Below are positions 6,113-25,209 of a stretch of 64,000 nt of DNA, piece by piece. Made by a program: the position numbers and the translations under genes. How positions within the stretch are numbered: the first letter of the stretch is position 1; every line of letters starts with the position of its first letter. The DNA is from Flavitalea plasmicola (GTDB lineage Bacteria > Bacteroidota > Bacteroidia > Chitinophagales > Chitinophagaceae). A model generated the notes under the pieces. It was not told the DNA's origin. It did no database searches and was given only the letters and a program-made list of their open reading frames with translations. The stretch covers positions 1-64,000 of the forward strand of contig NZ_JAUOTO010000010.1 in assembly GCF_030546645.1 (NCBI RefSeq). The letters run 5' to 3'.

Positions 6113-6610
6113 GAGATGTGTTTTTTAGTTTTGTAAACCTAAGGAACAGGATTCAGTAATCCAACGGACTTTGCAATCTTACGCAAACGTTTGTGCCATT
6201 CCGTTGTAGTGTATACGCCGGCGACCTTGCATTTCACCGACCAGGATCTACGGCGTGCGGACCATCTTTACCAGCGGCCGGATTACATTCGCCACCTACC
6301 CGGCACCGTTATCTCACCTGCGGCGCGACCTGCGAGTGATCATCTCTCCTTTATAAATGACTAAAAAAAGATACCCGATGATGCCGGAAATGAGGAGGGA
6401 TTTTCCGATGACTCCAGAGCCTATCAGGGCCGATTTTCGGTTATTGATGCCAAAATAGGCTGATATAGTGGCCTTTGTGTAAAATTGCAATTAAATGATA
6501 ATCAATTCATTAGCGGCAATTGTCGACCAATTGTCACCATGTCAACGATTTAAATATCTGCCGAAATTTGTATATTGGTTGGTATTATTAACCCATTAAT
6601 TGTATACAAC
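6113..6610. other. 498-bp intergenic region with a possible decayed gene fragment
   Basis: No intact gene is present. On the minus strand 6490-6314 stays open for 58 codons without a usable start. It reads like a real membrane-protein fragment: YFGINNRKSALIGSGVIGKS followed by a hydrophobic stretch LLISGIIGYLFLVIY. This may be the remnant of a lost gene. The 3' part (6480-6610) is AT-rich and probably holds the promoter of the SWIB gene. Confidence 0.3.
6134..6164 (-). promoter_or_regulatory. Candidate Bacteroidota promoter for the small secreted protein
   Basis: On the minus strand TTG (6164-6162) is followed after 20 bp by TAGGTTTA (6141-6134), a 7/8 match to TAnnTTTG. The predicted start point leaves a leader of about 15 nt before the ATG at 6112. 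Confidence 0.4.
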
Positions 6611-6994
6611 ATGGCAAAAACCATCAAAAAAAAGGCCGCTCCCAAGAAGGCCGCAAAGAAAGCTGCTCCTAAAAAAGCCGCAAAAAAAGCTGCCCCTAAG
6701 AAGGCTGCTGCAAAATCAGCCAGCAAGGCGCCGAAAAAGAAAAAGTCGCCTAATGCTGCATTCATGGCTGCAGTTACACCCAGCGCCGCATTGTCGGAAG
6801 TCGTCGGTAGCAAGCCGCTTCCCCGTACGGAGATCATCAAAAAGATCTGGGAATACATCAAGAAGAACAATTGCCAGGACAAGACCAACAAAAGGATGAT
6901 CAATGCAGATGCAAAACTGAAGGTACTGTTTGGCGGAAAGAGCCAGGTATCCATGTTTGATCTCGCAAAGATTGTCGGCCAGAATGTAAAATAA
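6611..6994 (+). CDS. SWIB/MDM2-domain protein with lysine-rich histone H1-like N-terminus
   Basis: 127 residues. Residues 1-55 are a basic tail built from KKAAPKKAAKKAAP-type repeats like those of histone H1. Residues of about 60-127 form a SWIB/MDM2 domain, recognisable by LSEVVGSKPLPRTEIIKKIW, YIKKNNCQDKTNKRMINAD and FGGKSQVSMFDLAKIV. In eukaryotes SWIB belongs to chromatin remodelling complexes. In Bacteroidota and Chlamydiae small SWIB proteins with basic tails are thought to be nucleoid-associated. The start at 6611 (MAKTIKKK) is preferred over an upstream in-frame codon because it gives the typical basic N-terminus. A strong terminator follows at 7001. Confidence 0.88.
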   Translation: MAKTIKKKAAPKKAAKKAAPKKAAKKAAPKKAAAKSASKAPKKKKSPNAAFMAAVTPSAALSEVVGSKPLPRTEIIKKIWEYIKKNNCQDKTNKRMINADAKLKVLFGGKSQVSMFDLAKIVGQNVK

Positions 6995-10478: not shown

Positions 10479-11030
10479 ATGGCATCTGTACTTACAATAA
10501 AGGAGTATGAAATAATGTTCAGGCGGCATTACAGATTCCTTTGTATGGTGGCTTTCGGGATCATAAAGGACGAGGATGCGGCCGAAGACATCGTCCAGGA
10601 TTTCTTCCTCAATCTATGGCAGCGTCGTATGGATATTCCTGAGATCCTCTCGTTCCAGGCATATGCCGCCCGGGCGGTGAGAAATCTCTCCATCAGCTGG
10701 TTACGCAAGCAGCAGGCATCCTCCGGAGAACAACTGCATGCAGTTACGGATGCGGCGGATCCCCACGAAGAAAAAGAGGTCTTTAATTCGGGCGAAGCCA
10801 TCACCGCCAGGGTAATGGAAATAGTGGAACTGCTTCCCACGGAAAGAAAGAAGATCTTTCTCCTGCATGTGATCGACCGGCTCAGCTATGCCCAGATAGC
10901 CGAAAAGCACGACATCTCCCTCAACACGGTGAAAACCCAGATGAAAAAGGCTTATGCCTTTATCCGGGCGCAGGTGGCGGATGACAAGCTGGGGGTTATA
11001 TTTCTCGCGCTGCTGTTACGGCAGCTTTAA
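10479..11030 (+). CDS. ECF RNA polymerase sigma factor (FecI-like), system 1
   Basis: 183 residues. Region 2 covers about residues 10-80 with EDIVQDFFLNLWQRR, the core-binding and -10 recognition part. Region 4 covers about 117-165 with LLPTERKKIFLLHVIDRLSY and IAEKHDISLNTVKTQMKKAY, a helix-turn-helix. This is the Bacteroidota family-1 ECF type, normally held inactive by a membrane FecR until a SusC/TonB receptor signals substrate. A FecR gene and a SusC gene with an STN domain follow in the same direction, so it probably controls the transport block starting at 12557. It may also act on its own FecR promoter in 11031-11337. Confidence 0.93.
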   Translation: MASVLTIKEYEIMFRRHYRFLCMVAFGIIKDEDAAEDIVQDFFLNLWQRRMDIPEILSFQAYAARAVRNLSISWLRKQQASSGEQLHAVTDAADPHEEKEVFNSGEAITARVMEIVELLPTERKKIFLLHVIDRLSYAQIAEKHDISLNTVKTQMKKAYAFIRAQVADDKLGVIFLALLLRQL

Positions 11031-11337
11031 GCCTTCCGTCGCTGTACATTCGGTACCACTGGACATTTGTTCGTCATTGAGCGGGTGTCCTATGGGCAGT
11101 TGTGGCTGAATGCGCAATCCGAATGTAAGGCTCCTTCAGGCTATAGCTGATCGGATGCCCGCGGAGGGGGCTAGTGGGGATTTGACAAATGAGACGAGTT
11201 CGAAGGGGTAAAGTTGACGCCTTGCCATTCAGGGGCCTTGAGGTCGACCCAAGCCCCCCAATCCAAAAACTTTTTTAAAAAAACTTCGAAAACCGATCAC
11301 CCCGCAGGCACATACCTGCGACATACATACACAGACC
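11031..11337 (+). promoter_or_regulatory. 307-bp ECF-FecR intergenic region with promoter-like layout
   Basis: No gene is present. The 3' part has an A/T run (AACTTTTTTAAAAAAACTT, from 11269), a G/C-rich stretch with a small hairpin GCAGG/CCTGC (11304-11319), and GCGACATACATAC directly before the FecR ATG. The same order (A/T run, G/C box, then GAC or GTC followed by ATA or TATA) is seen in the two other ECF-FecR junctions of the window. Confidence 0.4.
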
Positions 11338-12510
11338 ATGGACAGACAACCACTATTATGGGAAGAAGTGCTCAAAGCCGTCAACAAGGGACAGCAACCG
11401 ACACAGTCGCAATGGCATGCCTTGACGTCCGATGAGCAGGAATTGATCGCGAGCTTGCAGCAGCAGGCATTGACGGAAGGGGCCGTGGCTTTCCTGGACC
11501 GTATTACAGAAGATAAGGCGTGGGCAGCGTTGAGATCGAAAGCCGACATGCGCACGATGTGGCCCGTCAGGAGCGTACCCATACGCTTGCTCCGGTATGC
11601 CGCGGTATTTGCCGGTGTCCTTGTACTGGGTGCGGCAGCCGTATTGTTCCTGACAAAAGGCAAAGCTCCTCAGCCGGTGATAGCCGGCACCTATATAACG
11701 CCTCCCGCCAATCACAAGCGGGCCACGCTGGTATTGGATGATGGCCGGAGCATCGAGCTCGACAAAAAGCCCGATTCCAGGATCCAGCAGGGGCAGGCCG
11801 AGGTCGTCAATGTCGACACCTCCTTGCTCAGGTACACGGCAGCTTCAGGAGCCGAAAAACCCGCGGGCTTCAACACGCTGATCATCCCCAGGGGCGGGGA
11901 ATATAAGATCGAGCTGGCCGACGGATCCGAAGTATGGCTGAACGCGGAAACCCAGCTGCGGTATCCCACGCACTTCGGGGGAGTGGCTAACCGGGTAGTT
12001 TACCTCGAGAGCGGAGAAGCCTATTTCAAGGTCAGGCCGGATGCCAGGCAGCCATTTGTGGTGGTGGCCGGTGGAATGGATATCCATGTCCTGGGGACGG
12101 AGTTCAATGTCAATACCTATACAAGAGCGCTCGCGACGACACTGGTCAATGGCTCTGTGAGGCTGAATGCGGGCGCCGCCGTCACCATGCTGCGGCCGGA
12201 TCAGCAGGCTGTATATGACAAAGGCGACTTCACCAGGAAAGAGGTGGATGTAGAGACCTACACCGCCTGGAAAGAAGGCCAGATGATCTTCGTAGAGTCG
12301 ACATTGGAGGACGTGATGACCGTCATTGGCCGGCAGTATGATTTTAAGGTGGAGTTTGCATCGGCGCAGCTGAAAGACCGGCAATTTGGCGGGCGGCTCA
12401 GAAGATCGCAGCATATCGAGGATGTGCTGGCCGTCATAGGAAAAGTCGGTGGTGTGCAATTCAGCATCAGGGGGAAAACAATTTTCGTGGATAAGGCCTT
12501 GAAACAATAA
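11338..12510 (+). CDS. FecR family anti-sigma factor, system 1
   Basis: 390 residues. A cytoplasmic N-terminal part of about 80 residues binds the sigma factor. One membrane helix follows at about 84-106 (LLRYAAVFAGVLVLGAAAVL). The periplasmic FecR domain starts near residue 178 with FNTLIIPRGGEYKIELADGS and includes VWLNAETQLRYP and GEAYFKV. A C-terminal DUF4974-like STN-interacting domain ends GGVQFSIRGKTIFV. The protein passes a substrate signal from the N-terminal STN domain of the SusC partner at 12557 to the ECF factor at 10479. Its gene ends 46 bp before that SusC gene. Confidence 0.93.
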   Translation: MDRQPLLWEEVLKAVNKGQQPTQSQWHALTSDEQELIASLQQQALTEGAVAFLDRITEDKAWAALRSKADMRTMWPVRSVPIRLLRYAAVFAGVLVLGAAAVLFLTKGKAPQPVIAGTYITPPANHKRATLVLDDGRSIELDKKPDSRIQQGQAEVVNVDTSLLRYTAASGAEKPAGFNTLIIPRGGEYKIELADGSEVWLNAETQLRYPTHFGGVANRVVYLESGEAYFKVRPDARQPFVVVAGGMDIHVLGTEFNVNTYTRALATTLVNGSVRLNAGAAVTMLRPDQQAVYDKGDFTRKEVDVETYTAWKEGQMIFVESTLEDVMTVIGRQYDFKVEFASAQLKDRQFGGRLRRSQHIEDVLAVIGKVGGVQFSIRGKTIFVDKALKQ

Positions 12511-12556
12511 ATACGCCGTAACAACGGACAAACTAACCAAAACTAAACGCAATCTC

Positions 12557-15500
12557 ATGAACAATCTTGTGCATGGGGCGCTTCGCAGTCTGCTGCTCGC
12601 TGCGGGAGTCCTTCTAATGCTTTCGGGGAAAGCCCAGGACACAGAGAAACTCGTGTCCCTCGATCTAAAGAATGCCCGCCTTTCGGATGCGGTGAAAGAG
12701 GTGAGGAAACAATCCGACATGAACTTTTTTTACAGTGTCGACGATTTGAACAAGTATCCCAATGTTACGATCAATGTCAGTAAGAAGCCACTGTCCGAAG
12801 TGCTAGACCTGTTGCTGGCGGGCACGGACATGCAGTATTCCATCGAGAAGAATACCGTGGTCATCAAACGGAAGATCATTGCCAACCCCGCAAAGCAGAA
12901 CATTGATTCAATCATCACTGTCAGTGGCGTAGTGCTCTCACCCGGCGGAAGCCCCTTGTCCGGGGCCAGCGTAACGGAAATATTGTCCCGAAAATCCACG
13001 ATCAGCGATGCCGCGGGCAAATACACACTTTCTGTCCCCCGCCGGGCTATCCTGAAAATTACCTATGTGGGTATGAAACCGCAGCAGCTCACCGTGCACG
13101 CGGAAGGGGCGAATGCCGTGACTCAGAATGTCCGGATGCAGACGGCGCCTGTGGAGATGGGCGAAGCGGTGATCACAGGATACCAGACGATCCGGCGGTC
13201 GGAAATGGTGGGTTCTGCGAATACCGTTAATCGAAAAGACCTCTTTTATGATGGTACGAATACCCTCGAACAGATGCTGCAAGGCAAGCTGCCTGGCGTA
13301 GTGGTCACCAATCAAAACGGAGAGATAGGCACACGGCAAAAAGTACGGGTGCGGGGCACTTCCACCTTGTTGAGCAACCAGGAGCCCGTGTGGGTGGTGG
13401 ACGGCATCATACAGGAGGACCCCATTCCTTTTGAAGCGCAGGCCCTGAATGACCTGGGAGGCAATTTTGACATGATACGCAATTACATAGGAAATGGCAT
13501 CGCCTGGCTCAATCCTAATGACATCGAGGACGTCACGGTGCTGAAAGACGCTGCTGCTACGGTATTGTATGGCGTAAAGGCTGCCAATGGCGTCATCGTG
13601 ATCAAGACCAAGAAGGGCAAGCAGGGGCGTATGTCCGTTAATTACAGCGGCGGGATGGCTATTACGGAACGCTTGAATTACGACCGGCTGAACCTGATGA
13701 ACTCCAAGGAGAGGATCGATGTCTCCCGGGAGATCTATGAGAAGAGGTTGCTGGGCACGCCCGAGACGGCTGCTGTGGGTTATGAATATGCCTTGAACCA
13801 ATACCTGAACAAACAGATCAGCTATGACGAGTTCAACAGTATGGTAAAGCAGATGGAAGTGATGAACACGGACTGGATAAAGATATTATACCGTACGCCC
13901 TTTAGCCATAACCATAGCCTGAGCCTTTCCGGCGGTACGGACAAGGTGACCTACTATACTTCCATTTCGGGCAGTGAGCGGTTCGGCACGGCCAAGGGCA
14001 ATGATTCCCGCCTCCTGGGTGCCGTACTCAACCTGGATGCGAAATTGAGCGATAAGTTGACCGTAGGCGTAAGGCTGAACACCAATTATACAAAGACAAA
14101 CGGGTTTAATACGATCGACCCTTATACGTATGCCCAGGAGACCAGCCGGGCCATTCCTGCCGTCGATGCGCAGGGAAAGCCCGTGTTTTATGATAAACCC
14201 TACAATGGTGAAGATCTGAAATTCAATATCCTGAACGAACTGGCCGAGACTGGCAATACCAACGATCAGCGCAGCTTCAACGGGAATGTCAACATGAGCT
14301 ATGTGATCCTGCCCGGGCTGAGGCTCGAGAGCTTGTTCGGCGCCACTTCCACCAATGCAGTTGGCGAGGCATACGCTTCGGAATACAGCTATTACATCGC
14401 CAGAAATTTCCGTGGATATGAATACGGAAAGTACGGCGTGGGAAATGACCTCTACCAGCGGGCTCAACTACCGCATGGCGGGGAGTTCAAGTCCACGGAG
14501 AACCGTTCTACTACCATTACGTGGAGGAATAGCCTGGCGTATAACAAACTGGTGGGACGCCACCGGTTCGGCGCGCTGGTAGGAGAGGAGACGCGCAGTG
14601 CAAAGCAGAACGGCATCTCCACGCTGACTTATGGCTATTTTCCCGACAGGGGCCGGAATATCACGCTGCCGCCGAGAACGATCGTTTACAACGGTGTCTC
14701 CGCCAATCCCATTTATAACAGCATGGGGACGACGATCCTGGACAGGCAGTCTAATTTCCTGTCGTATTATGGGAGCATGACCTATTCGTATGACGAGCGC
14801 TATGTGTGGACGGGCAGCCTGCGTTCGGATGCATCCAACCGGTTTGGGCAGGACAAGCGGCATCGTTTTCTGCCGGTGTGGGCCACGGGCGTACGATGGA
14901 ATGTGCATAATGAACCCTGGATGGCCGATCAGAAGTGGGTCAGCGAGCTGAATCTCCGCGCTTCTTATGGCTGGCAGGGGAATGTCGCAGAGAACTTCGG
15001 CCCTGACCTGATCGCCAAGCTTCCATCCAGCGTCGTGAACCCTACCACGGGGGAATATGAGCTGACGATCAAGTCCCTGCCCTATGCCGACCTGCGGTGG
15101 GAGAAAACAAAAACGTTGAACCTGGGACTCGACTTCGGGTTTGCGAAAAATCGTTTTATCATGTCGGTGGAATACTACCACAAGCGGACGGAGGACATGA
15201 TCATCTATAAGGATATTCCGGTGTCCTATGGCACCCCCTCTCTGCCCGTGAATGCAGGAACGATGCTGAACAAGGGCCTGGAGCTGACCGTCAGTGGTAC
15301 ATTGGTCAGGAGTAAAGACTTCGTATGGAACATGTCCCTGAACACATCCCGGAATACGAACACCCTGAACACACAGGTGCAGAACACCAATACCTGGCAG
15401 ACGGCGGCGAATGGCAAATGGTATAAGAACGGATATGCCGTATCCTCTTTCTGGGTATGGCCGCTGCAAGGGCTGGACCCCACTAATGGATACCCCATAT

Positions 15501-16138
15501 TCCATATGCCTACAAAGGCAGAGGACCCGAACCTGGACACAGATCCTACTTCGTATATGAAATATGCCGGAAAGCTGGACCCGGATTTTCAGGCGGGGAT
15601 ATCCAGCTCGTTCCGCTACAAATGGCTGACCTTATCAACTTCCTTCACGTGGCAGGTGGGCGGTAAGAAGTTCTTGTATAAGATGTTCAATCTGCCCTTT
15701 GGACAGCTCCCCAGCGCATATTCCAACCTGCCCAAGGAGTTTGTGAAGAGGTGGCGTCAACCGGGAGATGAAAAAAAGACGAATATCCCCAGCATCCCCT
15801 CGCTGATCTATTATCCGGCCAATAACGATTGGTACCCGCCGTACATCCTCGGTGTACCGAATGGCACCGGTGAGGCGGAGTATGTGTACGACATGTATAA
15901 CTATTCGGATGCACGGGTGGTAAGCGCCGCCTTCCTGCGGTGTAACAATATTTCATTGACCTACAATGTGTCGGAGAAGCTGCTGGGTCATGCATTGAAA
16001 AATGTGTCCCTGACGGCTGCTGTCAGCAGTCCTTTTATCATCGTAAGCAAAGATTTCAAAGGCATGGACCCCGAGGTGGCCACGGGCAACCAGCCCATAC
16101 CACGCGTGTACTCAGCTATATTAAATGTAAGTTTTTAA
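12557..16138 (+). CDS. SusC/RagA TonB-linked outer-membrane transporter with STN domain, system 1
   Basis: 1,193 residues. Signal peptide to about residue 26 (SGKAQ), STN signalling domain at about 33-95 (LVSLDLKNARLSDAVKEVRK), carboxypeptidase-like fold at about 120-200, then a plug with GSANTVNRKDL, LQGKLPGVVV, VRVRGTSTL, WVVDGIIQED and DVTVLKDAAATVLYGVKAAN, and a barrel ending ILNVSF. It imports a substrate across the outer membrane with energy from TonB and reports to FecR through STN. It is the first gene of a tightly packed block (18-bp gap to SusD) that runs through an ABC complex and two MutS-like ATPases to 24587. The substrate is unknown. Confidence 0.95.
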   Translation: MNNLVHGALRSLLLAAGVLLMLSGKAQDTEKLVSLDLKNARLSDAVKEVRKQSDMNFFYSVDDLNKYPNVTINVSKKPLSEVLDLLLAGTDMQYSIEKNTVVIKRKIIANPAKQNIDSIITVSGVVLSPGGSPLSGASVTEILSRKSTISDAAGKYTLSVPRRAILKITYVGMKPQQLTVHAEGANAVTQNVRMQTAPVEMGEAVITGYQTIRRSEMVGSANTVNRKDLFYDGTNTLEQMLQGKLPGVVVTNQNGEIGTRQKVRVRGTSTLLSNQEPVWVVDGIIQEDPIPFEAQALNDLGGNFDMIRNYIGNGIAWLNPNDIEDVTVLKDAAATVLYGVKAANGVIVIKTKKGKQGRMSVNYSGGMAITERLNYDRLNLMNSKERIDVSREIYEKRLLGTPETAAVGYEYALNQYLNKQISYDEFNSMVKQMEVMNTDWIKILYRTPFSHNHSLSLSGGTDKVTYYTSISGSERFGTAKGNDSRLLGAVLNLDAKLSDKLTVGVRLNTNYTKTNGFNTIDPYTYAQETSRAIPAVDAQGKPVFYDKPYNGEDLKFNILNELAETGNTNDQRSFNGNVNMSYVILPGLRLESLFGATSTNAVGEAYASEYSYYIARNFRGYEYGKYGVGNDLYQRAQLPHGGEFKSTENRSTTITWRNSLAYNKLVGRHRFGALVGEETRSAKQNGISTLTYGYFPDRGRNITLPPRTIVYNGVSANPIYNSMGTTILDRQSNFLSYYGSMTYSYDERYVWTGSLRSDASNRFGQDKRHRFLPVWATGVRWNVHNEPWMADQKWVSELNLRASYGWQGNVAENFGPDLIAKLPSSVVNPTTGEYELTIKSLPYADLRWEKTKTLNLGLDFGFAKNRFIMSVEYYHKRTEDMIIYKDIPVSYGTPSLPVNAGTMLNKGLELTVSGTLVRSKDFVWNMSLNTSRNTNTLNTQVQNTNTWQTAANGKWYKNGYAVSSFWVWPLQGLDPTNGYPIFHMPTKAEDPNLDTDPTSYMKYAGKLDPDFQAGISSSFRYKWLTLSTSFTWQVGGKKFLYKMFNLPFGQLPSAYSNLPKEFVKRWRQPGDEKKTNIPSIPSLIYYPANNDWYPPYILGVPNGTGEAEYVYDMYNYSDARVVSAAFLRCNNISLTYNVSEKLLGHALKNVSLTAAVSSPFIIVSKDFKGMDPEVATGNQPIPRVYSAILNVSF

Positions 16139-16156
16139 CCCGCAACATATATCTAT

Positions 16157-17677
16157 ATGAACAAGCAATATAAGATCATGATAGGGTTGCTGCTCTGCCT
16201 GGGTCTATCCGGATGCAGCAAACATTTCCTGGATGAGAAGAGCCAGGACGAAGTTAAGCCAAGCACGGTCACCGAGCTGCAGGAGCTGTTGATGGGAGAG
16301 GTCTATCCGGCGGGTCAGACGAACACGAGCTTTCTGGCTTACCTGGACCTGATGACGGACGATATGACCAGCAATTTCAATCCCGATGACGGTGCTTTGG
16401 GACTGTACAATTTTTATGGAGGTCCGTTCACCTGGCAGGCGGATATGTATGAGACCATGGCGGCGGCCGGAAAATACAGCGCCATCGATACGTACGAGCA
16501 TTATTACCGCAGGATCCTGGGATGTAATGCCGTCCTGGACCTGATCGACAAAGTGAGGGGAGAGGCGGATGCCAGGGAGAATGTACGGGGGCAGGCGTTG
16601 GCGATGCGGGCCTATTTTTATTTCATGCTGGTGAATATATACGGACAGCCTTATAACGCGAAAGGCGTGGATATTTCCACCAGCCCCGGCGTGGAGCTGA
16701 TGCTGTCTTCCACCGTCCATGACGACTACCCAAAAAGGGAGTCGGTGGCGCGTATATACCAGCAAGTGGAGGAAGACCTGCTGAAGGCCATGCCACTGCT
16801 GGAACAGTATGGGGCGGATAACAGCAAGTTCAGGGCGACGGATATGTTCGTTTACACGCTCCTATCCCGCATGTACCTGTACATGGAAAAATGGGACAAG
16901 GCGCAGCAATATGCCACCAAAGCTTTAGAGCATAATTCCAAACTGGTGAACCTGGCCAGCATCCCTTATCCCGGCACTTTTTCCAACCCTGCAACGGGTG
17001 TGTACAGCATCAATAGCAAGGAAGCTATCTGGTTCGGTTATGCATCCCAGTACGAGTATGATCCTTTGAGCCGTTTTAGACCCTATGGCCCCGTACCCTT
17101 TGTCATCTCGTCGGACCTGCAGAGTAAATACCAGTTCGATAGGAAGAATACCACCAACCGGGGCGACCTGCGCATGCGGTATTTTTATTACTGGGATTTC
17201 GAGGATTATGACTGGACGATATACAGGGCCATATACGGACAAAAGCTTGACCAGGCCAGCAGTGGCGTCATCAAAGGTATGCGGGTGGCCGAACTGTATC
17301 TCAATCGGGCCGAAAGCTATATTCAACAATACCTGAAGAATGGGGACGAGTCCATGCGGACGGCTGCCCTGGCGGACCTGAATTATTTGCGCTCAAATCG
17401 TTATGACACGCGTAACGTGCCATATGTGAATGTGGATTACAGTGGTCAGCCGTTACTTGATTTCTGCCGGGATGAGCGGCGGCGGGAGCTGAGCTTCGAA
17501 GACCATCGCTGGTTCGACCTGCGGCGGTACGGCATGCCCGAGATCCACCACACCTTCCAGACGACAGCCGGCCAAAGCCCGGTGGAATATGTGCTGCACC
17601 AGGGCGACAAACGCTATGTGCTGCCCATTCCCAGGTCCGTCCTGTTGAAGAACCCTGCCATGCAGCCCAATCCTTAA
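16157..17677 (+). CDS. SusD/RagB-type surface lipoprotein, system 1
   Basis: 506 residues with a lipoprotein signal (LGLSGC, lipidated Cys20). Typical SusD features follow: early FLDEKSQDEVKPSTVTELQ, TPR-like helices including MRAYFYFMLVNIYGQPY and KWDKAQQYATKAL, and a C-terminal block LNRAESYIQ then RDERRRELSFEDHRWFDLRRYG, close to the signature of the family. SusD proteins cap the SusC barrel and capture substrate at the cell surface. The gene sits 18 bp after SusC and 18 bp before the lipoprotein gene at 17696. Confidence 0.94.
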   Translation: MNKQYKIMIGLLLCLGLSGCSKHFLDEKSQDEVKPSTVTELQELLMGEVYPAGQTNTSFLAYLDLMTDDMTSNFNPDDGALGLYNFYGGPFTWQADMYETMAAAGKYSAIDTYEHYYRRILGCNAVLDLIDKVRGEADARENVRGQALAMRAYFYFMLVNIYGQPYNAKGVDISTSPGVELMLSSTVHDDYPKRESVARIYQQVEEDLLKAMPLLEQYGADNSKFRATDMFVYTLLSRMYLYMEKWDKAQQYATKALEHNSKLVNLASIPYPGTFSNPATGVYSINSKEAIWFGYASQYEYDPLSRFRPYGPVPFVISSDLQSKYQFDRKNTTNRGDLRMRYFYYWDFEDYDWTIYRAIYGQKLDQASSGVIKGMRVAELYLNRAESYIQQYLKNGDESMRTAALADLNYLRSNRYDTRNVPYVNVDYSGQPLLDFCRDERRRELSFEDHRWFDLRRYGMPEIHHTFQTTAGQSPVEYVLHQGDKRYVLPIPRSVLLKNPAMQPNP

Positions 17678-17695
17678 CATATTAAACATGTATTT

Positions 17696-18607
17696 ATGAA
17701 GCGACTATTCTATATACTGGCCCTGACTTCCTTGTGGATGACAGGATGCAAAAAAGAAGCAAAGCTGACGCCTTCGGCAAAGCCGGAGGATATATATGGA
17801 GATCCCACTTTGCCTCAAGGCAATCATCCTTATGATGCGGAGATCCTGCAGCTCTTCAAGGACTATCGTACCCTATTCCTCTATAAATATAAGCCCCACG
17901 ACCTTTATTATAATATCACCTATGATCTGGCAGGGGTCTATGATACGGCTGCCGACAAGACTACGAAGGGAGGGTATTTCGACGTGCCGGCGGATGAGGC
18001 GTATGTCGGCCAGCAACTGGATTTGCTGAAGGAGCTTTGGCTGCACTATTATCCGGACTCCCTGCTGAGAAAAGGCCTGCCTCAAAAAGTGTTCCTGGTG
18101 GACAGCTTTTATTTCGTCGCTTATCCGGGGCCGGGCAAGCCCACCGATAACTGGCCGGAAATGCATGATGCCTTTGACGGCGGCGATTATATACTCGCCG
18201 GGTGGGGCGGCCCCCGGATAGCGAATATCACGCCGGAAGATAAATATGCGATGAAGGGACAGCTGAATGCAGCCTTCCTCCTCTTTACGCATAAACAGGG
18301 CGCCATAAAACCCATTGCTGCATTCAAGGCGCAAACCGATTATGGTGGGGTCAACCCGACCAACTACTATGAGCAGGGGCTCATCGAATATGACTACAAT
18401 GGCGGAAATACCCCGGACAGGGACTGGGATGCCTATACCACGATCATCGTATCCAACTCCTACGATGTATTGACGTCTCCCGGGAATATACTGTCGCCCG
18501 ATGTGGATACACAGGGTGTGATCCGGAAGAAATATGACATTTTGATCGCTTATTTCAAAACAACATTCGGCGTAGACCTCCAGGCCATCGGTAACGCAGG
18601 TATATAG
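17696..18607 (+). CDS. Metallohydrolase-like lipoprotein of SusC/SusD loci, catalytic motif lost
   Basis: 303 residues with a lipoprotein signal (LWMTGC, Cys18). Length, position after SusD and the overall pattern (IYGDPTLPQGNHPYDAEI, LLKELWLHYYPDSLLRKGLP, KVFLVDSFYF, and the late TIIVSNSYDVL and VIRKKYDILIAYFKTTFGVD) recall the substrate-import-associated zinc metallohydrolase lipoproteins. Those carry HExxH where this protein reads HKQGA (residues 199-203). The catalytic Glu and second His are therefore absent, and the protein is probably a non-catalytic surface component. The family assignment is from memory; the missing motif is read directly. A 16-bp tandem duplication (AGGTATATAGTCACAC, 18598-18629) spans its stop codon. 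Confidence 0.65.
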   Translation: MKRLFYILALTSLWMTGCKKEAKLTPSAKPEDIYGDPTLPQGNHPYDAEILQLFKDYRTLFLYKYKPHDLYYNITYDLAGVYDTAADKTTKGGYFDVPADEAYVGQQLDLLKELWLHYYPDSLLRKGLPQKVFLVDSFYFVAYPGPGKPTDNWPEMHDAFDGGDYILAGWGGPRIANITPEDKYAMKGQLNAAFLLFTHKQGAIKPIAAFKAQTDYGGVNPTNYYEQGLIEYDYNGGNTPDRDWDAYTTIIVSNSYDVLTSPGNILSPDVDTQGVIRKKYDILIAYFKTTFGVDLQAIGNAGI

Positions 18608-18634
18608 TCACACAGGTATATAGTCACCAGACAT

Positions 18635-19561
18635 ATGGAAGAACCAATCATAAAAGTAGAAAAACTGTCACACCGGTATAGCTCCCAGTGGGCCATCCGG
18701 GACATTGGATTCGAGATCACAAAGAATGGGATCTATGGGTTGCTGGGCTCCAACGGGGCCGGTAAATCCACCACCATGAACATCATGTGTGGCGTTTTAA
18801 AACAAACGGAAGGGAACGTCTATGTAAGGGGCGTCAATATGCGGGACAACCCTGTGGAAGCCAAACGCCGTATCGGCTTTCTCCCCCAAAAGCCACCCCT
18901 GCATACCGACCTGACTGTGGAAGAGTACCTGAAGTACTGTGCCCGGCTGAGACATATTCCGTCCCGGGAAATGGACAAGGCGGTGGCCAGCGTAATGGAT
19001 CGCTGCGCCATCGCTCATTTCCGGAGACGACTGATCCGCAATCTGTCCGGTGGCTATCAGCAACGGGTTGGCATTGCACAGGCCATCATCCATAACCCTG
19101 AGTTCGTCGTGCTGGACGAGCCGACCAATGGCCTCGACCCCAACCAGATCATAGAGATCCGCGCCCTCGTGAAAGAGATCGCCGAGCAGCGGACGGTGAT
19201 CCTGTCCACCCACATATTATCCGAAGTGCAGGCTACCTGCGATTATATCCGCATGATCGAGCAGGGGCGGGTGGTATTCGCCGGTACGGTGGACGAGTTC
19301 GATAATTACATCGTCCCGAGTACCCTCATCGTTACCATGATCTCCATGCCTCCCGCAGAGGAGCTGCGGAGCATCCCTGGCGTGGTGGGCGTAGAGGAGC
19401 TGGGAGGCCCGAAGTACAGGCTGAAGTTCTCGGATGGACAGGATGTGAAGGAGCGGGTCGTCGAGACCAGCGTCGCAAGGGGCTGGAGACTCACGGAGAT
19501 CTTCGCGGAAAAGAGCTCCCTGGACGCCATTTTTGCCGAATTGTCGAAAAAAACTGTTTAA
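18635..19561 (+). CDS. ABC transporter ATP-binding protein, GldA-like
   Basis: 308 residues. Walker A GSNGAGKST at 38-46, a Q-loop region near LPQKPPLHTDLTVEEYL, signature LSGGYQQRVG from residue 137, Walker B VVLDEPTNGLDP near 155-167, and the H-loop STHILSEV. The C-terminal 80 residues form the extra domain seen in GldA and similar gliding or exporter ATPases. The next gene is a GldF-GldG-type permease fusion 17 bp downstream, so the two form one complex in the inner membrane. In Flavobacterium GldAFG is required for gliding, but here the pair sits inside a SusC/SusD operon, which suggests a transport or signalling role tied to that system. Confidence 0.9.
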   Translation: MEEPIIKVEKLSHRYSSQWAIRDIGFEITKNGIYGLLGSNGAGKSTTMNIMCGVLKQTEGNVYVRGVNMRDNPVEAKRRIGFLPQKPPLHTDLTVEEYLKYCARLRHIPSREMDKAVASVMDRCAIAHFRRRLIRNLSGGYQQRVGIAQAIIHNPEFVVLDEPTNGLDPNQIIEIRALVKEIAEQRTVILSTHILSEVQATCDYIRMIEQGRVVFAGTVDEFDNYIVPSTLIVTMISMPPAEELRSIPGVVGVEELGGPKYRLKFSDGQDVKERVVETSVARGWRLTEIFAEKSSLDAIFAELSKKTV

Positions 19562-19578
19562 TAAATCGGAAAAGTACA

Positions 19579-21876
19579 ATGAAGACCATATTTACGATAG
19601 CGCGAGCGGAACTACAAACCTTGTTTTATTCACCAGTGGCCTGGTTGATCATCATCATTTTTACTTTCCAGGTGAGCATGGGATACTCCACTTCGATGGA
19701 AGGTTGGGTACAGTACTTTGCCCAGGGATATAAGCTGAACGGTGTTTCCATGGATGTGTTTGCCAATCAGCAGAATGGAACGCTTACCAACGTACTGGGT
19801 TACCTGTACCTGTATATTCCTTTGTTGACAATGGGGTTGATGAGCCGGGAGTTTGCCAGCGGCTCGATCAAATTGCTGTATTCCTCCCCCGTGACGAATA
19901 CCCAGATCATTCTCGGCAAGTACCTGTCGATGATGATCTATGCCCTGATCCTGATCGCCATTTTGCTGGTATATGTGGCAATATCGTGGTGGTTGGTCCC
20001 TGATTTCGAATTGAAAGCAATATTGGTAGGCGTCCTGGGCATTTACCTGCTGATCTGTGCCTATGCGGCCATCGGTTTGTTCATGTCCAGCCTGACGGCC
20101 TACCAGGTAGTGGCTGCCATGTGCACGCTGGCCATCCTGGCTTTGTTGAATTATGTTGGGAGTCTCTGGCAGGATATTGAATTTGTAAGGGACCTTACAT
20201 TTTGGTTGTCCATGTCCGGCCGCGCAGGCACCTTCCTCTTCGGCCTCCTCGGGAGCGAAGACTTTCTTTATTTCATCATCGTGGTGGCCCTGTTCCTGAC
20301 GCTGGCGTCCATCCGCCTGCAGGCGGCCCGGCAGAAGAGCCGCTGGACGGCATCCTTATGGAAATATGCGGCAGTGGTCAGTGTGACGATGTTGCTGGGC
20401 TATGCCACGTCCCGTCCTATGCTGATGGGATACTACGATGCGACCTCCACTAAAGCCAATACCCTGACTCCCAACAGCCAGAAGGTCATCAGCCAGTTAA
20501 AAGGCGACCTGACGATCACCACCTACACGAATATGCTGGACGATAAGAATTTATGGATCGCCCTTCCCAGCGCTGTCAATTATGACCTGTACCGGTTCAA
20601 GCAATACGTCCGGTTCAAGCCGGAAACAAAGCTGAAATATGTGTATTACTACGACACGCTGAATAACCCGGGGCTGGAAAAACGCTATCCCCGTTTGACG
20701 GACAAACAACGCATGGAGAAGATCATCGATATCTATAACATGAAAGAAAAGATGGTCAGGTCGCCGGAAGAGATAAGGAAAGAGATCGACCTGTCACCGG
20801 AGGGCAACCAATTTGTTCGTTCGATCAAAAGGGCGAGTGGAGAACAGACCTTCCTGCGCGTGTTTGACGACCAGATGATCCTGCCGGGGGAGACGGAGAT
20901 CACCGCCGCGCTGAAGCGATTGGCCATGCATCTTCCAAAGGTCGGGTTCCTGCGCGGTCATGGAGAGCGGGATAACCATAAGGAAGGAGACAGGAACTAC
21001 AATCGCTTTGCCCAGGACAAGCCGTTCCGCTACGCATTGATCAACCAGGGCTTTGATGTGGCGGATGTCAGCCTGGAAAAGGAAGTGCCCGGGGATGTCA
21101 ATATCATGGTGGTCGCGGATATGAAGAATGGATTGTCGGTTGCTGAAAAGGCCAACTTAGACAAATATATAGCCAGGGGAGGAGATCTCCTGATAGCAGG
21201 GGAGGCCCGGCGGCAGCACGCCATGGACGAGCTGATCGAACCGCTGGGCGTACGTTTTGTCCCGGGCATGCTGGTGACGCCCAGCGAGACTTCCCTGGCG
21301 GATTTTATTGTTTCAAAGCCCACAAAGGAGGCCGGGGACCTGATCTATATTTATGGTCAGATGTACAAAGCCAAAAGAGTGGTGACGATGCCCACCGCCG
21401 TGGGCCTGGAATATACGACAGATAAAGGATTTGACGTCACGCCGCTGTTCATGTCCGACTCGGCGGCCTGGAATGAAATGGAGACGAAGGATTTCATCGA
21501 CGATACAGCGAAGCTGAACCCGGCTGCCGGCGAAGTGCAAAAGTCTTATCCGACAGGGTTGGCTCTTTCCCGGAAAGTAGGGAACAAGGTTCAGAAGATC
21601 ATGGTCCTGGGCGACGCGGACTGCATCAGCAACGGGGAGATCAGCATCAGCAGGAAGGGGCTGCCGGCGGCGAATTATTCCGTTATAACGGGCGCATTCT
21701 ACTGGATGTCGGATAATGAAGTGCCCATCGACGTACGCAGACCCGACTCTAAGGACGGTAAGATCTCCCTGGACAAGGCGGGTATGTCGACCACCAAGGT
21801 CCTGTTGATGTGGGCGTTCCCTGGTTTGCTGGCCTTATGCGCCATCGTGCTTTGGATCAGGAGAAGAGGAAGATAA
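19579..21876 (+). CDS. GldF-GldG fusion ABC permease and auxiliary protein
   Basis: 765 residues. The first about 255 residues are an ABC-2 permease with six hydrophobic helices (IARAELQTLFYSPVAWLIII, LMSREFASGSIKLLYSSPV, LSMMIYALILIAILLVYVAI). A further helix near 262-275 leads into a large extracytoplasmic GldG/ABC-auxiliary domain (LTPNSQKVISQLKGDLTITT, VGFLRGHGE). A last helix at the C-terminus (VLLMWAFPGLLALCAIVLWI) precedes a basic tail. In most gliding bacteria GldF and GldG are separate genes; here they form one chain. With the ATPase at 18635 it makes a complete complex. The mechanism and cargo are unknown. Confidence 0.88.
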   Translation: MKTIFTIARAELQTLFYSPVAWLIIIIFTFQVSMGYSTSMEGWVQYFAQGYKLNGVSMDVFANQQNGTLTNVLGYLYLYIPLLTMGLMSREFASGSIKLLYSSPVTNTQIILGKYLSMMIYALILIAILLVYVAISWWLVPDFELKAILVGVLGIYLLICAYAAIGLFMSSLTAYQVVAAMCTLAILALLNYVGSLWQDIEFVRDLTFWLSMSGRAGTFLFGLLGSEDFLYFIIVVALFLTLASIRLQAARQKSRWTASLWKYAAVVSVTMLLGYATSRPMLMGYYDATSTKANTLTPNSQKVISQLKGDLTITTYTNMLDDKNLWIALPSAVNYDLYRFKQYVRFKPETKLKYVYYYDTLNNPGLEKRYPRLTDKQRMEKIIDIYNMKEKMVRSPEEIRKEIDLSPEGNQFVRSIKRASGEQTFLRVFDDQMILPGETEITAALKRLAMHLPKVGFLRGHGERDNHKEGDRNYNRFAQDKPFRYALINQGFDVADVSLEKEVPGDVNIMVVADMKNGLSVAEKANLDKYIARGGDLLIAGEARRQHAMDELIEPLGVRFVPGMLVTPSETSLADFIVSKPTKEAGDLIYIYGQMYKAKRVVTMPTAVGLEYTTDKGFDVTPLFMSDSAAWNEMETKDFIDDTAKLNPAAGEVQKSYPTGLALSRKVGNKVQKIMVLGDADCISNGEISISRKGLPAANYSVITGAFYWMSDNEVPIDVRRPDSKDGKISLDKAGMSTTKVLLMWAFPGLLALCAIVLWIRRRGR

Positions 21877-21892
21877 TACTAAAACCCGGATC

Positions 21893-23242
21893 ATGGCTTT
21901 TATCATTGATAAGCAGACTTTGGATGACCTGAATATTATAGGCAAGCGCCGGGGAGACGCGATCTACAGCCTGTTCAATAAGACACAGACCAGGGGAGGA
22001 GCGCAAGTGCTGGAGGAGATGTTCCTGTATCCCCTGGCAGACAGGCAGAAGATCCATCAGCGGAGCGAGATCATTCAATACTTCCAGGAAAAGAACGTCG
22101 CTTTCCCTTTCGGGAACGAGGCCTTCGATGCCATCGAGCATTATCTGGAGAACACGGATCAGCGGACCCGGATCGCGGCCGAGGAGGATACGCTGAAGCG
22201 AAAGCTGCGTGGCTACGTGGGGGCGGACACCGAATATGAGATGCTGCATAAAGGGATCGTCGCTGCTATTGAAATTTTCAACGGCCTGCACGATTTCCTG
22301 AGGACAATAGACACGGAACATACTACCCGGGCTTACAGGCTGGAGGCCAGGGAAATGCAAACGCTGCTGGCAGACGAACAATTTGCCTGGATGTATGAGG
22401 AAAAAGGGAGCAGGAAGCTGGCTTATGCCAGGGCGGCGGAGTACGACCAGACATTGCGGTTCGTGGCCAGGGACAAGATGAAAAAGCTGCTGTATTACAT
22501 CTATCATATAGATGTATATATTGCCGTCGCCCGGGTGGCGGCGGCCCGTGGCTTCGCCTTTGCCCATGCTTTGGAGACAGGAGAGAACACCCTGTCCATA
22601 GAAGGCATGTTCCATCCCCTGCTGACAAACCCGGTGTCCAATCGTTTGCAGGTGGATCGCAGCAGCAATGTGATCTTCCTCACCGGGGCCAATATGGCGG
22701 GCAAATCGACTTTTATGAAGACGCTGGGCGTTGTCATGTTCCTGGCGCACATGGGCTTCCCGGTGCCGGCGGGAAGCATGGCGTTCTCCGTGCGCAGCGG
22801 CATGTTCACCACCATCAACCTTGCCGATAACCTCAACATGGGGTACAGTCATTTTTATGCGGAAGTGCTGCGTCTTAAAAAAGTAGCCGAACAGGTAAGC
22901 CGCACGGAGGACCTGTTCGTCATTTTTGACGAACTGTTCCGCGGCACCAACGTGAAGGACGCTTACGATGCGACCGTAGCCGTGACGGAGGCCTTTGCCG
23001 AAAAGCGGAATTGCATATTTATCATTTCTACACACATTATCGAGGCCGGAGAGACATTACGGGAAAAATGTGACAATATCAATTTTGTCTATTTCCCCAC
23101 CGTGATGAAAGGCAATATCCCCGGCTATACTTATCAGTTAACACCTGGTATTACGAATGACCGGCATGGCATGATGATCATCAATAACGAACGGATCATT
23201 GATATTATCAAAGGCCGCCGGCATCATCTAAAATTAGTTTGA
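21893..23242 (+). CDS. MutS-like ATPase, tandem copy 1
   Basis: 449 residues. The C-terminal half is a MutS domain V: Walker A TGANMAGKST near residues 264-273, DNLNMGYSHFYAEVLRLK, Walker B with IFDELFRGTNVKDAYDA, and the His loop ISTHIIEAGETL. The N-terminal half is helical (QTLDDLNI, TRGGAQVLEEMFLYPLADRQ, then a long IAAEEDTLKRKLRGYV helix), like the MutS core and lever. The MutS mismatch-recognition domain I, the connector, the C-terminal helix-turn-helix and a MutS2 Smr domain are all missing. It is therefore not a normal mismatch-repair MutS. It starts 16 bp after the GldFG fusion and ends 1 bp before its paralog. Confidence 0.9.
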   Translation: MAFIIDKQTLDDLNIIGKRRGDAIYSLFNKTQTRGGAQVLEEMFLYPLADRQKIHQRSEIIQYFQEKNVAFPFGNEAFDAIEHYLENTDQRTRIAAEEDTLKRKLRGYVGADTEYEMLHKGIVAAIEIFNGLHDFLRTIDTEHTTRAYRLEAREMQTLLADEQFAWMYEEKGSRKLAYARAAEYDQTLRFVARDKMKKLLYYIYHIDVYIAVARVAAARGFAFAHALETGENTLSIEGMFHPLLTNPVSNRLQVDRSSNVIFLTGANMAGKSTFMKTLGVVMFLAHMGFPVPAGSMAFSVRSGMFTTINLADNLNMGYSHFYAEVLRLKKVAEQVSRTEDLFVIFDELFRGTNVKDAYDATVAVTEAFAEKRNCIFIISTHIIEAGETLREKCDNINFVYFPTVMKGNIPGYTYQLTPGITNDRHGMMIINNERIIDIIKGRRHHLKLV

Positions 23243-23243
23243 T

Positions 23244-24587
23244 ATGGCTTTTAAGGTGGATAAACAGACGCTGGACGACCTGAATATACCCGGTAAGTAT
23301 AAGGGAGATTCTATCTTCAATTTATTTGACCATACACGATCCCGGGGTGGGGGACAATTGCTGGAATCCATGTTCCATCATCCCCTTTCCGATGCAGAGG
23401 CGATCAATGCCCGGAGCGGTATATTGCAATATTTTCAGGAAAGGGAGATCGAATTCCCCGTCAGCAGGGAGCAATGCGAAGAGGCGGAACAGTACCTCGG
23501 CAGCGCCGGCAGCAATAGCATGGCTGGCGCCACGCTGACGATCGTGCGGAAGAAAATACTGCGTGTCATTGCGTCCGGTAAGGAATATGACACGATCCAT
23601 GACGGCATACGGTCGCTGATCGGGTTCATGCACGCGGTGAACGATTTTTTTACGCAGCTTGGATCGCACTTGTTCCAATACCCTTACCGCGAGACCATCC
23701 AGGAGGTGAAACAGATCTTCAACCATGCCAGCCTGCGGCAATTGCTCGCAGAGCAGGCAACTGCAAAGCTGCCCCTGGCAAAAGTTATTAAATATCACCA
23801 CCTGTTACGCACCGTTCACCAGCAGGCGCTCCGGCGGGTGTTGCAGATCCTGTACGAGACAGACGTATACATCGCCGTCTCCCGGGTGGCGCGGGAACGT
23901 AAATTTGCCTATGCCTGGGCGACGCCATTCGTGGAGGGCGAGAACCGGATCGACATCACCCGTGTTTTTCATCCCCGATTGAACGGAGCCGTCTCCAACA
24001 ACGTCCGCCTGGATCATGGAAGCAACATGATCTTCCTGACGGGGGCCAATATGGCGGGCAAATCCACTTTGATGAAGTCGGTGGGTATTGCCGTCTACCT
24101 GGCGCACATGGGATTTCCCGTCGCGGCGGAAGGCATGGCGTTCTCCGTCCAGGACGGAATGTACACCTCTATCAATGTCCCGGACAACCTGGATAAAGGA
24201 TACAGTCATTTTTATGCGGAAGTGCTCCGGGTAAAGGAGGTGGCCGAAGAAGTGGGCCAGGGCAGGAACCTGGTGATCATCTTCGACGAGCTGTTCAAAG
24301 GCACCAATGTTAAGGACGCCTATGATGCAACGGTGGCTGTCACTGCCGCCTTTGCAGAGAACAGGAACAGCGCATTCATCGTCTCCACCCATATCACCGA
24401 GGCGGGACAGACCCTCCAGGAGCAGCACGCCAATATGAAGTTCGTCTATTTCCCCACGATCCTGGAGAAAGGCATCCCCCGGTATACCTTCCGGCTACAG
24501 GAAGGCATATCCAGCGACAGGCATGGCATGATGATCATAGTCAATGAAGGGATCCTGGATATTATAAGAGGAAAGGTCGCGACATGA
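23244..24587 (+). CDS. MutS-like ATPase, tandem copy 2
   Basis: 447 residues, clearly paralogous to the gene at 21893: both start MAF then DKQTLDDLNI, share GGxQxLExMFxxPL, TGANMAGKST (near 266), DELFKGTNVKDAYDA and ISSDRHGMMII. The many differences show an old duplication, so the two may form a heterodimer as MutS proteins act in pairs. Domain I, connector, helix-turn-helix and Smr parts are also missing here. Only 1 bp separates the genes, indicating translational coupling. The next gene, a parvulin, is convergent and ends 1 bp away, so this is the end of the block starting at 12557. Confidence 0.9.
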   Translation: MAFKVDKQTLDDLNIPGKYKGDSIFNLFDHTRSRGGGQLLESMFHHPLSDAEAINARSGILQYFQEREIEFPVSREQCEEAEQYLGSAGSNSMAGATLTIVRKKILRVIASGKEYDTIHDGIRSLIGFMHAVNDFFTQLGSHLFQYPYRETIQEVKQIFNHASLRQLLAEQATAKLPLAKVIKYHHLLRTVHQQALRRVLQILYETDVYIAVSRVARERKFAYAWATPFVEGENRIDITRVFHPRLNGAVSNNVRLDHGSNMIFLTGANMAGKSTLMKSVGIAVYLAHMGFPVAAEGMAFSVQDGMYTSINVPDNLDKGYSHFYAEVLRVKEVAEEVGQGRNLVIIFDELFKGTNVKDAYDATVAVTAAFAENRNSAFIVSTHITEAGQTLQEQHANMKFVYFPTILEKGIPRYTFRLQEGISSDRHGMMIIVNEGILDIIRGKVAT

Positions 24588-24588
24588 C

Positions 24589-25209
24589 CTATCGCCCATT
24601 CGCCTTCAACACCGTAATGTCTTTTTTGTCGTCATCGTCATACGTCTTCTTGACGATGTAATGCCATTGCTTTTCCGACACGTCCACAAAGAAGATCTCG
24701 TCTTTTTTATGAGCGGCCACGGCATCCTGGAACTCCTTCGGCATCATCTCCTCCCCGAAGAACCAACCCGTGTCACCGTGCGTGGTATTGCCATCCATGG
24801 TATACTGGTCGGACAGCTGATCGAAAGGAGTGCCGGCAGCGGCCTTTTGCGTGATGAGCTTTTTAAGGCTGTCGATCTGGGAGACGGATAATGACCCGCC
24901 GTCCAAAAAGATATAGTTTGCGCGGTATTTGACAGTCTCCGTATGCTCCAGGACCTTATAGGTCACATAACCCACCGAAAAGATATCACCTTTGTTTTGC
25001 CTTAGCAACCGTTTGTCGATCAGGCTGGTATCCTTCCCTGCGGACAGATGGAGCAAGGCGGGCTTCAGCGTTTTGTTAGCATCCATCCATGCCTGCGCCT
25101 GCTGAACGGTCCCGATAGCTTTAAACTGGTCCGTTACGGTTGCCTGTGCGAATGTTGACGATGAAGCAAGCAGCAATAACCCTGCAAGAACATTTTTACT
25201 CACGTTCAT
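24589..25209 (-). CDS. Exported parvulin-type peptidyl-prolyl isomerase
   Basis: 206 residues with a signal peptide to about residue 22 (SSTFAQ). The second half (residues about 97-190) fits a PpiC/parvulin domain: RANYIFLDGG, SQIDSLKKLITQKAAAGTPFDQLSDQY, then HGDTGWFFGEEMMPKEFQDAV and FFVDVSEKQWHYIVKKT. Such proteins help fold outer-membrane or secreted proteins in the periplasm. It is short compared with SurA or PpiD and has no membrane anchor. It is convergent with the MutS-like pair (1-bp gap), and its start lies 189 bp from the divergent SusC gene at 25399. Confidence 0.8.
   Translation of the reverse strand: MNVSKNVLAGLLLLASSSTFAQATVTDQFKAIGTVQQAQAWMDANKTLKPALLHLSAGKDTSLIDKRLLRQNKGDIFSVGYVTYKVLEHTETVKYRANYIFLDGGSLSVSQIDSLKKLITQKAAAGTPFDQLSDQYTMDGNTTHGDTGWFFGEEMMPKEFQDAVAAHKKDEIFFVDVSEKQWHYIVKKTYDDDDKKDITVLKANGR

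Follow-up and report, generated by a model that had tools for sequence, protein, structure and literature searches.

A conserved SusCD operon of Flavitalea plasmicola with an adjoining GldA-GldFG pump and paired MutS-like ATPases: a candidate trans-envelope system for peptides

Why should an outer-membrane receptor, an inner-membrane ABC pump and two proteins of the MutS superfamily be encoded side by side? The question is raised by positions 10479 to 24587 of a 64,000-nucleotide stretch of the Flavitalea plasmicola genome (the window; assembly GCF_030546645.1, contig NZ_JAUOTO010000010.1), where nine plus-strand open frames run from an ECF sigma factor gene to the second of two MutS-like genes. 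An earlier note made from the sequence alone had read SusC, SusD, a lipoprotein, a GldA-like ATPase, a GldF-GldG fusion (GldFG) and two MutS-like proteins, behind an ECF/FecR pair, as one block. All nine frames lie on the plus strand where that note had placed them, and the gaps it gave (18, 18, 27, 17, 16 and 1 bp) are the last six of the measured series from the ECF gene to the last MutS-like gene (307, 46, 18, 18, 27, 17, 16 and 1 bp). We propose, with a probability of about 0.5, that the block encodes a conserved trans-envelope SusCD system for peptides with its own inner-membrane ATP engine, composed of GldA, GldFG and a MutS-like heterodimer.

The view of a single system would fall, according to the earlier note, if related genomes lacked the linkage; a neighbourhood search found it conserved across relatives. 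Searching the 8.7 Mb genome to which the window belongs with the MutS-like protein gives 23 matches, and eight further operons of the same plan were found there, nine in total. They vary in detail: in one the two MutS-like genes form a single frame of 879 amino acids (aa) (locus L041), in another a TlpA-type thioredoxin gene lies between them (L042), and a third has two GldFG genes (L045). Of 68 GldFG matches in other genomes, 60 were fetched with their surroundings, and duplicate removal left 109 loci with GldA and GldFG: 60 came from the GldFG query, nine belong to the own genome, and the remaining 40, mostly found via MutS, are for that reason biased towards it. SusC, SusD and FecR were each near in 57 of the 59 informative GldFG-query loci, and in 41 of the 56 with enough sequence GldFG is directly followed by the MutS pair, either as two genes or fused into one. 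Viewed from the MutS side, 176 of 224 single MutS-like frames (duplicates kept) fall within 6 kb of a same-strand GldFG gene; 11 of the remaining 48 are taken as cut or upstream pairs of the system and 37 as an orphan type. The controls were 40 high-scoring SusC loci from five genomes, many without ECF/FecR and unmatched for that pair. GldA, GldFG and MutS were all absent from 20 further SusC loci in the own genome, and neither GldA nor GldFG was found at 20 SusC loci in four relatives, so that the pump adjoins none of the 40; in one control stretch of 8 kb (L244) an opposite-strand MutS-like frame lies close to a contig end. Given nine such operons in the own genome against none at either set of control loci, the observed linkage exceeds chance.

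Within the block the genes fall into modules. Pairwise distances between operon proteins were correlated over 94 loci, and although shared ancestry accounts for part of the correlation, values within modules were high (SusC-SusD 0.81, GldA-GldFG 0.85, MutA-MutB 0.85), those between pump and MutS intermediate (0.53-0.68, with MutA-GldA at 0.68) and those between SusCD and either pump or MutS weak (0.25-0.38, with MutA-SusC at 0.32). A repeat that included FecR at 77 loci agreed, the six pairs tested exceeding all 300 permutations. When the type of lipoprotein was mapped on a GldFG tree of 110 loci, 19 changes were needed, compared with a mean of 59 and a minimum of 52 in 200 shuffles. By these comparisons pump and MutS are passed on as one unit, which has joined up with various SusCD pairs.

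MutS-like A (21893..23242, plus strand) and MutS-like B (23244..24587, plus strand) each match PF05192 and PF00488. Pfam found only MutS_III and MutS_V in either protein; MutS_I, MutS_II and MutS_IV were not found, and PF05190 had a single match elsewhere in the own genome. Neither is a mismatch-repair MutS by profile, the equivalog score being 141.8 against a cut-off of 480, while the predicted model of A (mean predicted local distance difference test score, pLDDT, 88.4) finds its best PDB matches among MutS cores. All 20 of 20 aligned sequences share unchanged ATPase motifs, which we take to be Walker A, Walker B and a histidine with their usual roles. A tree built from 208 MutS-like sequences puts the first-position gene in clade A in 93 of 94 cases (support 0.98; the exception is L159) and the second-position gene in clade B in 91 of 97 (support 0.92), the six exceptions being Bacteroidales or Bacteroidia metagenome-assembled genome (MAG) loci; three frames without a visible partner also lie inside these clades. 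In 11 fused proteins the N-terminal half groups with first-position and the C-terminal half with second-position sequences, and parsimony on separate trees gives a minimum of seven changes of fusion state. Among 111 adjacent pairs, 47 show an overlap of 4 bp (duplicates kept, the start taken as the first start codon); the window pair has a gap of 1 bp. On these trees A and B are old paralogues and, since position predicts clade, fusion has recurred and 4-bp overlaps are common, they probably form a long-kept heterodimer.

More distant MutS-like relatives (28-38% identity) occur in other gene contexts. At positions 9460-13828 of L048, in the own genome, a single small MutS-like gene lies between dihydroorotase and YifB, a layout that recurs in several family relatives as judged by gene length. 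At 10001-12695 of L173 a small MutS-like pair sits among argG, argC and argD-type transaminase genes; L167, L169 and L187 have similar gene lengths, the arginine-synthesis genes having been identified in L173 only. An origin from KamC-type B12 reactivases was rejected: NF052383 is among the best matches but reaches 121.1 against a cut-off of 300, the orphan relatives examined adjoin dihydroorotase/YifB or arginine-synthesis genes rather than aminomutase genes, and the nine window operon genes match other families.

The remaining genes were assigned with Pfam and NCBIfam profiles at their own cut-offs, and all lie on the plus strand. The ECF sigma factor (10479..11030; PF08281 and PF04542 above cut-off) and FecR-type anti-sigma factor (11338..12510; PF04773, PF16344) precede a SusC/RagA TonB-dependent channel with an N-terminal STN signalling domain (12557..16138; TIGR04056, PF07660, PF07715) and a SusD/RagB lid lipoprotein (16157..17677; PF14322, PF07980). 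The nearest solved chains of SusC and SusD are 8ypt/8ypu, from which no specificity was drawn. The pump consists of a GldA-type ABC ATPase (18635..19561; PF00005), whose nearest solved chains, ABCA lipid transporters, were judged too generic to use, and the GldF-GldG fusion (19579..21876; PF12679, PF09822), in which an ABC2 permease with five hydrophobic segments in residues 10-247 is followed by a GldG-type domain and a C-terminal hydrophobic segment at 742-760.

Between SusD and the pump lies the lipoprotein (17696..18607) that the earlier note called metallohydrolase-like. The likeness holds for the fold: the predicted model (mean pLDDT 83.8) matches 4l7a, a putative zinc metallopeptidase of Bacteroides caccae, with a best E of 2.8e-05 and template modelling (TM) scores of 0.44-0.57 over its two chains. 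The label of a zinc metallohydrolase does not hold, as the protein scores under the cut-offs of PF15890 and TIGR04549 (22.4 against 75 for the latter) and an HExxH motif is present in none of the 19 matches of its profile, a count that takes in one truncated match and the window protein itself. Taken together, the fold match and the missing motif make the protein look like a catalytically dead metallopeptidase relative, a pseudo-metallopeptidase. It resembles the LP_HExxH_w_tonB (TIGR04549) and 4l7a lipoproteins in fold and in its place after SusD, as in a Riemerella locus, and differs from LP_HExxH_w_tonB in lacking HExxH and falling below that family's score. That related Riemerella locus is listed as altered under iron limitation (PMC5429918). 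Passages of PMC10434189, searched for the lipoprotein families, gave no match.

What the system might carry is best approached through its accessory genes. The nine largest clusters of otherwise unlabelled operon genes are DUF4843, PKD_2, M16, TlpA, DUF4397, S9, a DUF4953 Met-zincin, a weak Mfa-like family and S41. Four of these are peptidase families, four are of lipoprotein type and one is a TlpA thioredoxin; of the smaller clusters and 63 single genes few were identified. Near the 109 loci we counted DUF4843 at 19, PKD_2 at 19, the dead metallopeptidase at 18, DUF4397 at 15, M16 at 23, TlpA at 13, S41 at four, Met-zincin at four and S9 at one, with any of M16, S9, S41 or Met-zincin near 32 of the 109. 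Among ten further neighbours examined were an M1 peptidase (L084), an M23 peptidase (L158) and a TonB-dependent barrel with a histidine kinase (L075); three match nothing. Single loci show other company. In L119, which has no SusCD within the fetched stretch, a SNF2-type helicase gene (13412-16255) lies downstream of the GldA-GldFG-MutS-MutS block, past an opposite-strand frame. In L120, from Butyricimonas, the MutS pair is followed (12685-20790) by OEP, HlyD, an ABC ATPase recognised by the GldA profile, then a MacB permease and another GldA-GldFG. M16 lies near 23 of 109 loci against none of 40 controls (Fisher p 5.6e-4), and the accessory genes as a whole favour a peptide substrate.

Several points weigh against this interpretation. 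The M16 contrast is only indicative, its profile having been derived from loci of the system itself and the controls being high-scoring SusC genes from five genomes, unmatched for ECF/FecR. TlpA is not clearly enriched, at 13 of 109 loci against 3 of 40 control stretches (one on the opposite strand), and was dropped as a mark of the system. By these profiles 77 of the 109 loci have no peptidase, nor is one linked to any of the nine own-genome operons, and a GH106 rhamnosidase follows L045. The Riemerella iron-limitation listing would suit a metal-linked substrate. The MutS pair, moreover, is not indispensable. Of the whole set, 17 loci have no MutS directly downstream; six are explained, by MutS-like genes upstream of the operon in L074, L075, L077 and L078 (on the opposite strand in L075), by a contig end in L111 and by a pair placed after the second GldFG in L120, which leaves 11 GldA-GldFG loci without MutS in the fetched stretch. 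That some loci do without it suggests that the pair is an aid to the pump and not the pump itself. Finally, most ABC-2 pumps of this type export their cargo, which accords poorly with import.

Our working model for a trans-envelope peptide system is as follows. SusC and SusD, with the variable surface lipoproteins, would capture the substrate and, drawing on TonB energy, let it into the periplasm. Its presence would be signalled through SusC (by its STN domain), FecR and the ECF sigma factor, as family knowledge suggests, and would switch the operon on. At the inner membrane GldA and the GldFG fusion would form an ABC-2-type machine whose periplasmic GldG part may receive or move the peptide, while in the cytoplasm the MutS-like heterodimer would serve as a switch or remodeller driven by ATP, with the machine or its cargo as target, rather than as a mismatch-repair clamp. 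We infer the heterodimer, the peptide substrate, the direction of transport and the action of the MutS pair. The idea that MutS-like proteins serve as ATP switches of an envelope machine was one of two readings offered in the earlier note and is the one we favour for the pair's likely role. MutS2 is reported to split stalled ribosomes (PMC10897456), which shows that the MutS fold can act on a target other than a mismatch. More tentatively, and at somewhat less than even odds, we suggest that GldA-GldFG and the MutS A/B heterodimer make up a hitherto undescribed ATP engine of the inner membrane, whose MutS-type clamps no longer work on DNA but as transporter switches, and which could be a standard drive for dozens of SusCD receptors, occupying about a tenth of the genome in some soil Bacteroidota.

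Other explanations of the same block deserve weighing. The linked peptidases would also serve the detoxification or scavenging of antimicrobial peptides, in which SusCD takes the peptide up, GldA-GldFG clears it from the inner membrane in the manner of lantibiotic-immunity pumps, peptidases destroy it and the MutS pair tunes the pump. GldA indeed matches the lantibiotic-protection ATPase TIGR03740 at 182 bits, below the cut-off of 310, and the Butyricimonas locus continues with efflux components (OEP, HlyD, MacB and a further GldA-GldFG). However, efflux genes occur in one locus, GldA-type matches are generic and resistance alone has no need of a SusCD importer, and we regard this explanation as unlikely. 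The pump's nearest named families, GldA and GldF, point instead to a secretion, surface-assembly or gliding-type machine with SusCD as docking partner. All three Gld equivalog cut-offs are missed, which makes the earlier label of a gliding-type complex too strong, and up to about 56 copies in one genome suit substrate-specific receptors better than one motility apparatus; such a machine seems to us quite improbable.

SusCD and ECF/FecR genes are typical of glycan loci, and with GH106 beside L045 one might see in the block an ordinary glycan-use locus into which an ABC pump and MutS-like genes have come with no shared role. Against this stand a gene order conserved in several Bacteroidota orders, the co-inheritance described above and the absence of GldA and GldFG from all 40 controls; nor is there a glycan-active enzyme among the nine window operon genes, as a polysaccharide utilisation locus would call for. 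We give this explanation little credence. Least plausible of all is the uptake or handling of DNA or a DNA-damaging substrate by MutS-like clamps on DNA, the other reading of the earlier note. Membership of the MutS superfamily and the SNF2-type helicase downstream in L119 speak for it, but domains I, II and IV were not found, median isoelectric points are near neutral (7.3 for A, range 5.2-9.0; 6.7 for B, range 5.6-9.3), and the nine largest neighbour clusters include peptidases, lipoproteins and TlpA and no nuclease or competence family. Of the earlier interpretation as a whole, the idea of one system is borne out, the DNA substrate has little in its favour and the gliding-type label goes too far.

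The peptide system proposed here is patchily distributed, and most sampled genomes lack it. In an evenly drawn sample of 394 phylum genomes, queried with the MutS-like protein and keeping the best four candidates per genome, full-length matches of at least 45% identity occurred, among the matches listed, in three: the own genome, a second of the same genus (G388) and G099; other listed matches were near 30% identity or covered the ATPase part only. GldFG, with the best three matches kept per genome, was matched in 33 of 344 sampled family genomes and in two of the eight genomes listed for the own genus. Named genomes, scanned with a MutS alignment, yielded at least 78 loci, whose titles are all Bacteroidota except one Chlorobiota MAG with an orphan-type gene. 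The module is present in Butyricimonas, Flavivirga (with SusCD on the opposite strand relative to the module), Robertkochia, Pedobacter, Mucilaginibacter, Sphingobacterium and Chitinophaga, and gene order is kept across several orders of the phylum. Where present it can be abundant: eight hand-picked relatives had 112, 49, 22, 8, 8, 8, 4 and 4 MutS-like matches (E-value limit 1e-70, halves of fused genes counted separately). The highest count, in the 7.8 Mb genome G606, corresponds to about 56 pairs, and copies of window-operon length in that number would fill near one tenth of the genome. SusC, SusD, GldA, GldFG and a MutS pair all run in one direction at 19 of 20 chosen G606 loci; at the other, L220, the MutS pair lies upstream of ECF-FecR-SusC and the pump genes would fall outside the stretch. 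In a subtype seen in L045 (6623-8232), L224, L225, L227, L229, L231 and L232, frequently with two or more GldFG genes, SusD and GldA are separated by a second ECF-like gene (confirmed with Pfam for L045 alone) and an uncharacterised protein of about 300-336 aa. Source names among 120 listed MutS-like relatives are mostly 'DNA mismatch repair' or 'MutS-related protein', and annotation may be hiding the system.

Within the window the operon is followed by a peptidyl-prolyl isomerase domain gene on the opposite strand (24589-25209). A scan for sigma-70-like promoters gave 15 matches against a shuffled mean of 15.5, no excess, and one Bacteroidota-like promoter pattern gave none. A plasmid-borne origin was dropped after a search of a plasmid collection gave no match. 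Elsewhere in the window, a second SusC-type gene and a 431-aa frame are directly followed by a single 909-aa frame (29862-32591) that joins a GH9 cellulase, with CelD_N, to a polysaccharide deacetylase domain and has a 24-bp tandem repeat near its start. A SWIB/MDM2-domain protein (6575-6994) carries a 27-bp repeat encoding a lysine/alanine-rich N-terminal stretch, and at 4-1826 a 156-bp tandem repeat of 11.7 copies (88% match) lies in a gene whose protein carries the CHU_C type IX secretion signal.

SusCD importers are understood as powered by the shared TonB/ExbBD. Here every copy comes with an ABC pump of its own and, in most cases, a paired MutS-type ATPase; this would put the MutS fold to a new use and add a layer to uptake in Bacteroidota, and the roughly 56 MutS pairs of G606 mean that a large uncharacterised share of one genome serves a single kind of system. 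Literature searches, with most subscription journals outside their coverage, found no published account of SusCD combined with GldA-GldFG and MutS-like proteins; PMC5458099, considered as one, was set aside, its available passages concerning unrelated mutS mutations and the word susceptibility. SusCD uptake is a known kind, and it is the attached pump-plus-MutS unit for which the literature searched yielded no description. The window proteins are of the SusC/SusD and RagA/RagB kind by score (TIGR04056 626.2 against a cut-off of 368.25 and the signature TIGR04057 53.3 against 46.2 for SusC; PF14322 91.2 bits and PF07980 73.5 bits, both above cut-off, for SusD), and RagAB is reported to take up peptides (PMC11817032); the difference lies in the adjoining GldA and GldFG, which none of the 40 control SusC loci has. 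Gliding GldA-GldF-GldG is the nearest named family of the window ATPase and permease; yet the scores stay below the cut-offs (TIGR03522 275.1 against 402.6, TIGR03518 70.6 against 288.5, TIGR03521 18.8 against 389.85), and in the window the permease and GldG part are fused and linked to SusCD. With MutS, MutS2 and KamC ATPases the pair shares lever and ATPase domains and a fold matching MutS cores, and it is set apart from them by the domains I, II and IV not found, by scores below all their cut-offs, by its conserved A/B pairing and by its place in a transport operon.

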